Of a stretch of 64,000 nucleotides of DNA, positions 28,862-62,033 are shown piece by piece. The position numbers and the translations under genes were made by a program. The stretch covers positions 806,001 through 870,000 of the forward strand of contig NZ_CP062310.1 in assembly GCF_014876775.1 (NCBI RefSeq). The letters run 5' to 3'. The stretch's first letter is position 1, and each line of letters opens with the position of its first letter. The notes below the pieces were generated by a model, which searched no databases, was not told the DNA's origin, and saw nothing but the letters and a program-made list of their open reading frames with translations. The DNA is from Infirmifilum lucidum (lineage in GTDB: Archaea > Thermoproteota > Thermoprotei > Thermofilales > Thermofilaceae).

Positions 28862-29395
28862 GTGAAAAGCCGCTACCTCATTATCGGGGTGGGGAACGTG
28901 ATGTATGGTGACGATGCAATAGGACCTATCCTCGCAGAGGGACTATCAGAGTGCGGCGTTAACGCCTTACCGGCGGAATTGGACGTGTTCAGCGTTGTCT
29001 CCCACATCGAGGAATCATCGTTAGTCATCTTCATTGACGTATTAGACGAGTCCTTCGGGCAAAGGGGGAGAGTCGTAAAGATAAGGCTCGACCCCCAGAG
29101 GCTTTCAGCAGAGGACATAGTTGATATGATCAATTGGGAGCTTAGCGCCCACAAGGTTACACCCGCACACCTCATAGCTCTAGCCTATGCCTCTGGGGGG
29201 TTCTCCGGGGAAGCCTGGATTATAGGCCCCGTGGCGAGCAATTTTGAGTTCGGTACTTACCCTTCAGAAGACACTCTGAAAAAAGTAGAGGACATCATCT
29301 CTGAAATAGAGGATATTGTTGGAGAGAAAATCGACAGAGAGTGTGTTGTGAAAAAAGTTAGTCAAAGGCTTTCAGAGCTCAGAGCTTTATTCTAG
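28862..29395 (+). CDS. [NiFe] hydrogenase maturation protease (M52 family)
   Basis: Endopeptidase that removes the C-terminal peptide of the large subunit after nickel insertion, using the bound nickel as recognition element. 177 residues, GTG start three bases after the preceding stop codon. Family motifs: GVGNVMYGDDAIGP (first metal-binding Asp), FIDVLDE (second acidic ligand) and AHKVTPAHL (His ligand). The presumed substrate is the large subunit at 24.9-26.7 kb. Its 3' end overlaps the convergent PEP synthase gene by nine bases. Confidence 0.92.
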   Translation: MKSRYLIIGVGNVMYGDDAIGPILAEGLSECGVNALPAELDVFSVVSHIEESSLVIFIDVLDESFGQRGRVVKIRLDPQRLSAEDIVDMINWELSAHKVTPAHLIALAYASGGFSGEAWIIGPVASNFEFGTYPSEDTLKKVEDIISEIEDIVGEKIDRECVVKKVSQRLSELRALF

Positions 29396-31861
29396 CTCGT
29401 CAACCCTGCGGGCAAACTTTGGCAACCCCTTCCTCTCGCGCCGCATCGGCCAACCTAGATCCTCCTCGACTCTCTCGATCCCCAGCGACTTCTCGAGGAG
29501 TATCCTTCTCTCGATGGATGCTACAAGTTCCCTAGTACGAACTACCACGTCAGGGTTCACGCTTATGCTGTCGATGCCATGCCTCACGAGGAATTCTGAG
29601 AATTCTGGGTAAACGCTTGGAGCTTGACCGCATATCGAGACTGTCCTATACCCGTAGGGAGAGTTGTGGGCCTTTTCGATCAACATGGCTATAGCCGTCC
29701 GAACAGCAGGGTCTCGTTCGTCGAAGTATCTGGGGTCTATCTTCGGAAGTATCGCAGAATCCCTGTCTGTGCCTAGCGTGAGTTGTGTGAGGTCATTGCT
29801 ACCTATAGAGAAGCCGTCGAAATACCTCGCGAACTCTTCTGCGAGGAAGACTATGCTTGGAACCTCTGCCATAGCCCATATCTTAAAGTCCTTGCTGCTC
29901 TCAAGTCCTTCCTCGGCGAGCAGTTTGATGAATTTCTCGGCCTCCCAGAGAGTCCTTACGAACGGTGCCATAACCCATACGTTTCCTAGGCCCATCTCGT
30001 CCCTTACTTTCTTGATCGCCTTTACCTCCAGCCTGAAAGCCTTCTCGTATTGAGAACTGATGTACCTGCTGACACCGCGCCAGCCAAGCATTGGGTTGTC
30101 CTCCTGAGGCTCGTACTTCTCGCCACCCTTTAGTTGCCTGTACTCGTTTGTCTTGAAGTCGCTGAAGCGCACGACGACTGGCCTGGGGTATATCTCCCGT
30201 GCAACTAAGGCGATGCCCTCAGCCATCTTGTTGACGAGCACGTCTCCTCTCCCAGTCTCAAGCAGGTAGAGCGGGTGCTCACCTACATAGCTGGCCATTA
30301 TGAACTCCACGCGCATCAGCCCGATGCCGTCAAAGGGTAGATCCTTGTACTCCTTAATCTTCTCGGGCACACCCAAGTTCATGTATATTTTAGTAGCAGT
30401 AATGGGTTTCCAAATGATCTCGATTGGCGCAGCAGCAACAGCCTTCTCTTCTTTCTTACCGCCCAAGAGCTCCTCTACTCTCCCCTCATAGACAACGCCT
30501 GTTCTAGCGTCTACAGTGTAATCCTTGCCGTCAACCATGAGCTTTGTCGCCTCTCTGGTTCCAACAATTGCTGGAATGCCCAGCTCTCGGCTCACAATCG
30601 CCGCGTGGGCAGTCATTCCTCCCTCGTCAGTGACTATAGCAGCCGCTATTTTCATGTAGGGTACCCAGTCTGGATCAGTCATCTTAGTGACCAGGATGTC
30701 CCCGGGTTGCATTTTAGCCTTCGCGTCCTCAAGCGTGAGGCATATCTTGGCTCGTCCGTAGGCAACGCCAGGACTAGCCGCGAGCCCCTTTACTACGGGC
30801 TTTGCCTCTGCTACGCTCTTCACGGTCGCTGTTTCAGCGCCCTTAGCTTCCTTCACGCTCCAGACAGTCTCGGGTCTCGCCTGGACTATGAAAACGCTCT
30901 CAGGGAATGGTAGATCCCTGTCAACAGCCCACTCAATGTCCATGGGCCTGCCGTAGTGTTGCTCAATCTTCACAGCTAGTTCCGCGAGTCTCAAGACTTC
31001 CTCGTCGCTCAGAGACGGTGCGTTCCTCCTCGATGGCTCTATCTCGCGCTCCACGGTTTTACCCGTTTGTGGATCCCTGACTAGCTCGATCCTCTTCTCT
31101 ACGATGTTCCGCTGGATAATCTGCATAGTTCTCTTGTCCACAACCCACTCGTCGGGAGTAACCTTGCCGCTCACCACGGCTTCTCCCAGCCCCCAGTGGC
31201 CCTCGATAACGATTTTATCCCTCTCGCCTGTCACAGGGTGAAGCGTGAACATTACACCGGCAGACTTAGAGTTGACCATCTTCTGTACTGCCACGCTGAT
31301 AAGAACCTTCTCATGCTCGAACCCCTTCGACTCCCTGTAGAATATCGCCCTAGGCGTGAACAGGCTTGACCAGCACTTCTTCACCTTGCTGACAACGTCG
31401 TCCTCACCCCTCACGTTCAGGTATGTCTCCTGTTGCCCCGCAAAACTCGCGTCTGGGAGATCCTCCGCCGTAGCACTACTCCGCACAGCGACAAACTCCT
31501 CTTTCTTGCCGACGCGCTTGCCGAGATCCCTGTAGGCCTTCCTAATCTCTTCTTCGATGTCCTCCGGCATGGGGGCGCTCTCAATAAGCTCTCTTATCTC
31601 CTTGCTAGCCTCCATGTAGTCCTCGGGCTTCGCAGCGCCTGCTGGAACACGGCTACGGAGTATCTCATAGATCTTGTCGCGGATACCAGTTTCCTCGATG
31701 AACCTCTTATAGGCATAAGCTGTTACCGCGAAGCCGGGCGGGACGGGTATCCCGGCCTTTATCATCTCGCCGAGGTTAGCATTCTTGCCACCCACTATTG
31801 GCACGTCTTCCTTTGAGAGCTCTTCAAACCACAGGATTATCTTGTTCTTCTTCTCACTCAT
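29387..31861 (-). CDS. ppsA: Phosphoenolpyruvate synthase
   Basis: Makes PEP, AMP and phosphate from pyruvate, ATP and water (gluconeogenesis; may run in reverse in hyperthermophiles). Order: N-terminal ATP-binding domain (VGGKNANLGEMIKAG; VRSSATAEDLPDASFAGQ), central swivelling domain with catalytic histidine in GGMTAHAAIVSREL, and C-terminal PEP-binding barrel with IGSNDLTQLTLGTDRDS and the catalytic cysteine in SICGQAP. The length of 824 residues is normal. Pyruvate phosphate dikinase is less likely because family-specific insertions are missing. The gene is monocistronic. Confidence 0.95.
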   Translation of the reverse strand: MSEKKNKIILWFEELSKEDVPIVGGKNANLGEMIKAGIPVPPGFAVTAYAYKRFIEETGIRDKIYEILRSRVPAGAAKPEDYMEASKEIRELIESAPMPEDIEEEIRKAYRDLGKRVGKKEEFVAVRSSATAEDLPDASFAGQQETYLNVRGEDDVVSKVKKCWSSLFTPRAIFYRESKGFEHEKVLISVAVQKMVNSKSAGVMFTLHPVTGERDKIVIEGHWGLGEAVVSGKVTPDEWVVDKRTMQIIQRNIVEKRIELVRDPQTGKTVEREIEPSRRNAPSLSDEEVLRLAELAVKIEQHYGRPMDIEWAVDRDLPFPESVFIVQARPETVWSVKEAKGAETATVKSVAEAKPVVKGLAASPGVAYGRAKICLTLEDAKAKMQPGDILVTKMTDPDWVPYMKIAAAIVTDEGGMTAHAAIVSRELGIPAIVGTREATKLMVDGKDYTVDARTGVVYEGRVEELLGGKKEEKAVAAAPIEIIWKPITATKIYMNLGVPEKIKEYKDLPFDGIGLMRVEFIMASYVGEHPLYLLETGRGDVLVNKMAEGIALVAREIYPRPVVVRFSDFKTNEYRQLKGGEKYEPQEDNPMLGWRGVSRYISSQYEKAFRLEVKAIKKVRDEMGLGNVWVMAPFVRTLWEAEKFIKLLAEEGLESSKDFKIWAMAEVPSIVFLAEEFARYFDGFSIGSNDLTQLTLGTDRDSAILPKIDPRYFDERDPAVRTAIAMLIEKAHNSPYGYRTVSICGQAPSVYPEFSEFLVRHGIDSISVNPDVVVRTRELVASIERRILLEKSLGIERVEEDLGWPMRRERKGLPKFARRVDELE

Positions 31862-31984: not shown

Positions 31985-31998
31985 AAAAAGTTTAAATC
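31985..31998 (+). promoter_or_regulatory. Probable TATA/BRE promoter of the permuted initiator tRNA gene
   Basis: AAAAAGTTTAAATCG has a purine-rich BRE-like stretch followed by a TATA-like TTTAAA. Its distance of about 25 bases to the GC-rich leader helix starting at 32,020 is right for an archaeal transcription start there. Confidence 0.55.
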
Positions 31999-32019: not shown

Positions 32020-32129
32020 GCCGGCACACCCTGAAAGTCCACCCCCCGCTACCAGGAGCGGGGTGGGGAAGCCAGGCATCCCGCGGGGCTCATAACCCCG
32101 AGGTCGGTGGTTCAAACGGGTGTGCCGGC
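32020..32129 (+). tRNA. Circularly permuted initiator tRNA-Met (CAU) gene
   Basis: The 3' part comes first: T60 at 32,038, T-stem CCACC 32,039-32,043, acceptor CCCCGCT 32,044-32,050, A73 and encoded CCA to 32,054. Two bases (GG) follow, then the 5' part: acceptor AGCGGGG 32,057-32,063, D-arm GGGA/TCCC, anticodon arm CGGGG-CTCATAA-CCCCG (CAT at 32,091-32,093), variable AGGTC, T-stem GGTGG and TTCAAA to 32,116. T-stem GGTGG pairs only with the upstream CCACC. Leader GCCGGCACACCC (32,020-32,031) and trailer GGGTGTGCCGGC (32,118-32,129) are perfectly complementary over 12 bases and should form the bulge-helix-bulge that joins the ends in the T-loop. A1-U72 and three G-C pairs in the anticodon stem mark an initiator. 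Confidence 0.93.
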
Positions 32130-32159
32130 GAATTTTTACAGTATGAGATTGTTTTGAGC

Positions 32160-32558: not shown

Positions 32559-32615
32559 AGAGCAAACAAACTTCTCTTTATAAAAACGGTTATCCAGTTA
32601 AAATAGTCAAGATAG

Positions 32616-32699
32616 CGCCGGGGCCGGGATTCGAACCCGGGTTCCCTGTCGGGAAGCGGATTAGCAATCCGCCGCCTTGGGCCGCTCGGCCACCCCGGC
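32616..32699 (-). tRNA. tRNA-Ser (anticodon GCU)
   Basis: Class II tRNA, 84 bases with discriminator G. Acceptor GCCGGGG pairs with CCCCGGC; anticodon arm GCGGA-TTGCTAA-TCCGC; long variable arm (TTCCCGACAGGGAA region); T-loop TTCGAAT. No intron. Confidence 0.96.
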
Positions 32700-42136: not shown

Positions 42137-42240
42137 GGGCCCGTGGCGTAGCCAGGAAGCGTGGCGGCCTCCGGAGCCGTAGACGTGGCGGCGTCGCCGC
42201 TGCTCGGCGGATGTCCCGGGTTCAAGTCCCGGCGGGCCCG
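42137..42240 (+). tRNA. tRNA-Arg (anticodon CCG) with intron in the variable region
   Basis: Acceptor GGGCCCG (42,137-42,143) pairs with CGGGCCC, discriminator G. The anticodon arm GCGGC-CTCCGGA-GCCGT is uninterrupted. T-arm CCGGG-TTCAAGT-CCCGG. Between anticodon and T-stems are 35 bases instead of five. Removing 42,183-42,212 (30 bases) restores variable loop AGGTC and a 74-base tRNA. The exon CCGT and intron GCGG can form the 4-bp central helix flanked by 3-base bulges AGA and ATG. The exact splice sites are inferred. Confidence 0.85.
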
Positions 42241-61959: not shown

Positions 61960-62033
61960 GGGCCGGTAGCTCAGCCAGGTAGAGCACCCGGCTCATAACC
62001 GGGGGGTCCCGGGTTCGAGTCCCGGCCGGCCCA
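61960..62033 (+). tRNA. tRNA with anticodon CAU (elongator Met or Ile2)
   Basis: 74 bases with discriminator A. Acceptor GGGCCGG/CCGGCCC; D-arm GCTC/GAGC; anticodon arm CCCGG-CTCATAA-CCGGG; T-arm CCGGG-TTCGAGT-CCCGG. No intron. G1-C72 excludes the initiator. Met and Ile2 cannot be separated by anticodon; if Ile2, it is the TiaS substrate. Confidence 0.93.

Follow-up and report, generated by a model that had tools for sequence, protein, structure and literature searches.

How is an initiator tRNA obtained from a gene in which the 3' half of the molecule is encoded ahead of its 5' half, and how could such a gene arise? The question is posed by positions 32020-32129 of a 64,000-nucleotide stretch of the Infirmifilum lucidum genome (hereafter the window; coordinates refer to it unless stated otherwise), which an earlier note had read as a circularly permuted initiator tRNA-Met gene. 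The explanation that we favor, and consider almost certain as a whole, is that this is the sole initiator tRNA gene of its genome, permuted between tRNA positions 59 and 60, transcribed from its own promoter, presumably processed by EndA and RtcB, and of single, probably in-place origin.

Gene anatomy and copy number

Read directly, the locus is one tRNA-iMet(CAU) gene on the forward strand, with its 3' half first and its 5' half second. A leader, GCCGGCACACCC (32020-32031), which forms one strand of a 12-bp helix according to the reading, the fold, and the compensatory changes described below, precedes TGAA (32032-32035), one strand of a central 4-bp helix. A bulge, AG|T (32036-32038), follows, with the putative cut between 32037 and 32038. 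The 3' half (32038-32054; tRNA positions 60-76, TCCACC-CCCCGCT-A-CCA) comprises T60, the 3' strands of the T-stem and the acceptor stem, the discriminator A (32051), and an encoded CCA (32052-32054), as in permuted initiator genes of the Thermofilum type. Only GG (32055-32056) intervenes before position 1 of the 5' half (32057-32116; tRNA positions 1-59, AGCGGGG...CTCATAA...GGTGGTTCAAA), which carries the anticodon CAT at 32091-32093; the gene lacks an intron. A second bulge, AA|C (32115-32117; putative cut between 32116 and 32117, from the fold), leads into the trailer, GGGTGTGCCGGC (32118-32129), which is the second strand of the 12-bp helix. A run of T lies 3' of the trailer (32133-32137).

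Pairing is complete in the acceptor stem (7/7), the T-stem (5/5), the TTCA:TGAA central helix (4/4), and the leader/trailer helix (12/12). The bulges AAC and AGT, of 3 nt each, form with the 4-bp TTCA:TGAA helix a canonical bulge-helix-bulge at 59/60, and the predicted cuts at its canonical sites would yield a 7-nt T-loop, TTCAAAT. The minimum free energy structure given by RNAfold for the linear 110-nt RNA is, unaided, exactly the predicted one (-65.3 kcal/mol; z = -4.05). The order of the halves, the GG between them, and the perfect 12-base complementarity flanking the T-loop break are therefore as the earlier note had described them. Its view that the arms pair only after circularization did not hold, since all of them are able to form in the linear precursor, so that splicing would only seal the T-loop covalently.

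When the halves are joined (77 nt), ARAGORN calls a tRNA-Met(cat) with a normal cloverleaf and a defined isotype; the permuted gene as it stands is reported neither by ARAGORN nor by Rfam at its gathering score. The joined molecule has the A1:U72 pair, the three G:C pairs closing the anticodon stem, and the CAU anticodon of an initiator tRNA, and ordinary CAT genes are found elsewhere: an elongator Met gene at 61960-62033 and a second at genome position 986091. The leader/trailer bulge-helix-bulge at 59/60, together with the normal joined cloverleaf, places the locus among type IV (T-loop) circularly permuted tRNA genes. A split, trans-spliced tRNA was considered and rejected: the halves lie 2 nt apart on one strand, and a second copy of either half was not found. 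The locus is thus confirmed as a permuted initiator tRNA gene with its T-loop break at 59/60.

The window genome (G000) is a single contig of 1,625,846 bases (1.63 Mb; 99.95% complete). An Rfam tRNA search combined with targeted sequence inspection gives 45 tRNA genes in ordinary order and the permuted one; this complete genome yielded no other permuted tRNA, no second copy of either half, and no further initiator tRNA. A second, ordinary initiator gene, which the earlier note had named as part of what would overturn its reading, was thus looked for and not found. The Tyr, Glu(CTC), and Pro genes, missed or scored low in the Rfam search, were examined as candidate permuted tRNAs; all were located, in ordinary order. 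Separately, an intron-containing tRNA-Arg(CCG) at 42137-42240 (forward strand) matches Rfam and is missed by ARAGORN.

A single promoter-like box, the BRE/TATA-like element AAAAAGTTTAAA (31985..31996, forward strand), stands 5' of the leader. From its center it is 26 nt to the leader and 63 nt to the 5' half; the median box distance in 41 other tRNA genes of the genome is 29. The gene thus likely has a promoter of its own, situated immediately 5' of the leader. Its downstream neighbor is a convergent ordinary tRNA-Ser(GCT) gene (32615..32699, reverse strand); upstream, a phosphoenolpyruvate (PEP) synthase/pyruvate phosphate dikinase gene (29387..31861, reverse strand) is syntenic in relatives.

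Constraint, distribution, and origin

We scored the window gene with a covariance model (R2) trained on seven other genomes, leaving out G000, G001, G006, G014, and G019. The gene scores 123.7 bits (E 7.7e-29), and the next match in the window, at the elongator tRNA-Met, reaches 27 bits; anatomy, fold, and this leave-out model together support the identification of a permuted initiator tRNA-Met gene. In an alignment of eleven distinct genes, from which introns had been taken out by hand beforehand, 14 pairs changed on both sides, including all 12 leader/trailer pairs. Of the cells, 95.3% are paired, compared with no more than 50.1% once partners are shifted by 1-3 columns, and none of 500 shuffles was as good as the real alignment. 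The mature tRNA is nearly invariant across the eleven genes, and the leader and trailer change rapidly while staying paired, which indicates that selection for pairing holds them together.

Since standard tRNA finders miss the locus, it might be taken for a decayed or nonfunctional relic, the initiator tRNA coming from another gene. This is hardly credible: the complete genome holds no other initiator tRNA, and the conservation of the gene in 11 genomes with compensatory changes contradicts such a reading at the sequence level.

A model search of 81 genomes of the class gave a bimodal result, with 12 genomes at 97.7-135 bits and all others at 54 or below. The high-scoring genomes are seven of the window's genus (by the tool's taxonomy), G009, G012, G014, and G016 of the same family, and G019 of another family. 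One of the seven congeners, G004, carries the gene at G004:C2:539167-539296, the published coordinates of the Thermofilum pendens gene; the precedent named in the earlier note is correct (PMC3218864). G019 apart, 11 related genomes carry the permuted gene whole, and in G015 the leader and 3' half are followed by the contig end. A tree built from the PEP synthase protein groups the permuted genomes in a single clade (support of 98/96); this is a single-gene tree whose forks outside that clade are moderately supported and from which G019 is absent, having no match for the protein. These sequence comparisons show that the permuted initiator gene is a heritable trait of one Thermofilaceae clade, which is new here, the arrangement in T. 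pendens being known before. As a strong taxonomic marker, which the earlier note had proposed, it serves for a clade within the Thermofilaceae but not for one species alone.

In G000, G001, G004, G005, and G006, the permuted gene stands upstream of the PEP synthase gene, at a distance of no more than 2 kb. The lineage next outside the permuted clade (G008 and G013) has an initiator gene in ordinary order that likely contains a 37/38 intron and is located on the same side of the PEP synthase gene, some 5 kb upstream; with the pattern used, the initiator tRNAs of G007, G010, and G011 were not found. The position of the sister lineage's ordinary gene is better explained by vertical descent, with permutation in place, than by a lateral gain of the permuted gene and its flanks, which had been proposed for T. 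pendens in 2011. That proposal drew on T. pendens flanks that are most similar to species outside the Thermoproteales (PMC3218864), and two occurrences outside the clade, G019:C19 and G349:C10, could be read in the same way. Yet the gene follows the species clade in 11 genomes, and both outside occurrences look like stray contigs; together with the sister lineage's gene, this makes lateral gain quite improbable. For G019:C19, a GC content of 0.46-0.54, where another contig of the bin has 0.35-0.44, and the bin's intact RNase P RNA indicate that it is probably a stray contig from a binning error, or else a transfer. G349:C10 is the sole permuted initiator gene outside the clade in a 398-genome sample of the phylum, and it too is probably a stray contig, as G349 has its own ordinary initiator gene. 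Contig G019:C19 also carries 5S and SRP RNA genes; G349:C10 (7092 bp) has a gene for a ParA-like ATPase and a 494-amino-acid open frame without Pfam match that runs antisense across the tRNA. Searches of plasmid and phage collections returned only partial 5'-half matches, as expected of ordinary Met tRNA genes.

Permutation of the initiator gene would then have occurred once, in the ancestor of the Thermofilaceae clade; probably, an ordinary-order gene that carried a 59/60 intron in its T-loop was rearranged where it stood. A model of tandem duplication followed by loss of the outer halves predicts intron-bearing genes of this kind, and two relatives have them: G011, in the window's family just outside the permuted clade, has an ordinary-order tRNA-Tyr with an intron exactly at 59/60, and G058 (contig C32), of a more distant family, has an ordinary-order tRNA-iMet with a 22-nt intron exactly at the same site. 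By eye, the ends of these introns resemble a bulge-helix-bulge; the 4-bp central helix is partial for G058 and missing for G011 in RNAfold. The G011 tRNA-Tyr (C112, near 1715-1890) has a further insertion in its D-loop. No tandem-duplicate intermediate was seen among the genomes examined, and it is the match of position and isotype in these two relatives that makes the route from intron to permutation probable. tRNA-Tyr, the other isotype with permuted genes in this group, is permuted in six genomes (G004, which is T. pendens, G009, G012, G014, G015, and G016), versus one published species, and is in ordinary order in G000, G001, G005, and G006; on the tree, its permutation was either lost in these four or gained twice.

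Precursor processing and the RNase P RNA

The window genome encodes two EndA paralogues, one RtcB, and one RNase P RNA (genome 878686-878963, reverse strand). Two EndA paralogues are expected for a heterotetrameric enzyme with broad tolerance of bulge-helix-bulge motifs. From this encoded machinery and by analogy with the algal pathway (PMC3978253), we infer that the precursor folds its leader onto its trailer and presents the canonical bulge-helix-bulge, that the splicing endonuclease EndA would cut both bulges, and that RtcB would join position 59 to 60, a circle resulting where the acceptor loop has yet to be cut. The 6-nt acceptor loop, ACCAGG, would lose its GG to RNase P and 3' trimming, so that the encoded CCA becomes the 3' terminus. 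A circular intermediate has been seen in red and green algae; the same review describes it as undemonstrated in archaea and the removal of a one-nucleotide spacer as unexplained (PMC3978253).

The earlier note had stressed that a 2-base spacer leaves almost no room for separate end processing. The GG is indeed present, but so short a spacer is not unique: in the permuted genes compared, spacers between CCA and position 1 range from 2 to 23 nt, with 2 nt also in G001, G005, and G006, and that of the T. pendens tRNA-Tyr is 1 nt. A script found CCA after the discriminator in 0 of 41 ordinary tRNA genes of the window genome, and inspection showed that the Tyr, Glu(CTC), and two further Pro genes also lack it. 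All ten tRNA genes sampled in G003, and all ten in G008, encode CCA, as do 3 of 20 in G005; loss of the encoded CCA seems to be recent in the window lineage. That it was lost from the 45 other genes and kept in the permuted one is, as a pattern of a single gene, suggestive only. In the permuted gene on G349:C10, ACCA is replaced by ATCA and the spacer is nearly 30 nt long; thus, it may be chiefly with short spacers that the encoded CCA matters.

Matches to RNase P RNA reach 65-102 bits within the permuted clade, versus 113-172 bits in the remaining genomes that yielded one; in G009, the search did not detect it. To compare the T-loop anchor, we set six genomes of the permuted clade, covering both of its deep branches (G000-G005), against G007, G008, G010, G017, G018, G019, and G021. 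By alignment and motif checks, a deletion of about 8-11 nt has removed the CR-II motif (consensus CAGAAACGA) from all six, and their CR-III (UGAAACGGCC) is altered, CR-V being intact in the clade; the seven genomes outside it keep CR-II and CR-III with at most one mismatch. A near-match to CR-II in G002 was discarded as a retained motif, since it falls outside the CR-II alignment position. In the M. jannaschii structure, CR-II and CR-III constitute the T-loop anchor, which stacks against the T- and D-loops of the tRNA (PMC6565675).

The order of processing steps could differ. Were RNase P to act first, it would open the acceptor loop and leave a pair of RNAs, kept together by leader/trailer pairing, which EndA and RtcB would join as in a split tRNA, with no circle formed. 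Nearly all arms fold in the linear precursor, the 6-nt acceptor loop is exposed, and an RNase P RNA without a T-loop anchor might not be hindered by an unsealed T-loop. The circular intermediate observed in red and green algae (PMC3978253) and the very stable helix that EndA has as its substrate here speak against this order, which we regard as unlikely, though worth keeping in view; cleavage and joining by EndA and RtcB ahead of the acceptor-end steps is the order that we prefer.

Loss of the anchor and breakage of the T-loop map to one and the same part of the tree, each as a single event, which is an unreplicated correlation and not proof. Anchor loss, with CR-II deleted and CR-III changed, might have made precursors with an open or interrupted T-loop processable and so let introns at 59/60 become permuted genes in place, the encoded CCA and minimal spacer being the solution for the 3' end; we offer this as a speculative proposal that is rather doubtful at present. 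Pyrobaculum-type RNase P RNA has no recognizable specificity domain (PMC6565675), yet none of five sequenced Pyrobaculum species has permuted tRNAs (PMC3218864), which calls for caution about the link. Our literature search returned no description of anchor loss in Thermofilum RNase P RNA; the 2010 minimal-RNase P paper lay outside that search, and the novelty of the observation is uncertain.

Comparison with known systems

The window gene is an ortholog of the permuted tRNA-iMet(CAU) gene of T. pendens (Chan, Cozen and Lowe 2011, PMC3218864), with which it shares isotype, the 59/60 break, the encoded CCA, a single promoter before the 3' half, and single copy. It differs in its spacer (2 versus 7 nt), in having no 37/38 intron, and in its leader and trailer sequences. 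The permuted tRNA-Tyr(GUA) of T. pendens (PMC3218864) likewise has a 59/60 break and encoded CCA but is of another isotype, and the tRNA-Tyr of the window genome is in ordinary order. Type IV permuted tRNAs of Cyanidioschyzon merolae have the same 59/60 break and bulge-helix-bulge termini, but no encoded CCA, spacers of 8-38 bp, and other isotypes (PMC3978253), and are likely of independent origin from the archaeal ones. The permuted SRP RNA of Thermoproteus tenax also has termini that the tRNA splicing endonuclease cuts and that are then joined, steps that are predicted for the window gene; it works as a circle, however, so that opening of an acceptor end is unneeded (PMC4731332). In the split tRNAs of Nanoarchaeum, Caldivirga, and Desulfurococcales, as in the window gene, leader/trailer pairing and a bulge-helix-bulge unite the halves, yet these come from two transcripts rather than from one with the halves reversed.

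Permuted tRNA genes are rare, and the archaeal reviews consulted name a single species. Beyond that precedent, our analysis adds constraint across a clade, ordinary and intron-bearing relatives, a retained CCA, and the coincidence with RNase P. As the only initiator tRNA depends on the permuted-gene route, its processing must be essential to this heat-loving archaeon. A heritable clade trait that stands beside ordinary and intron-bearing relatives makes the duplication-and-loss model of origin testable on real intermediates, and the co-occurring loss of the RNase P anchor offers a checkable reason why the T-loop could break in this lineage.
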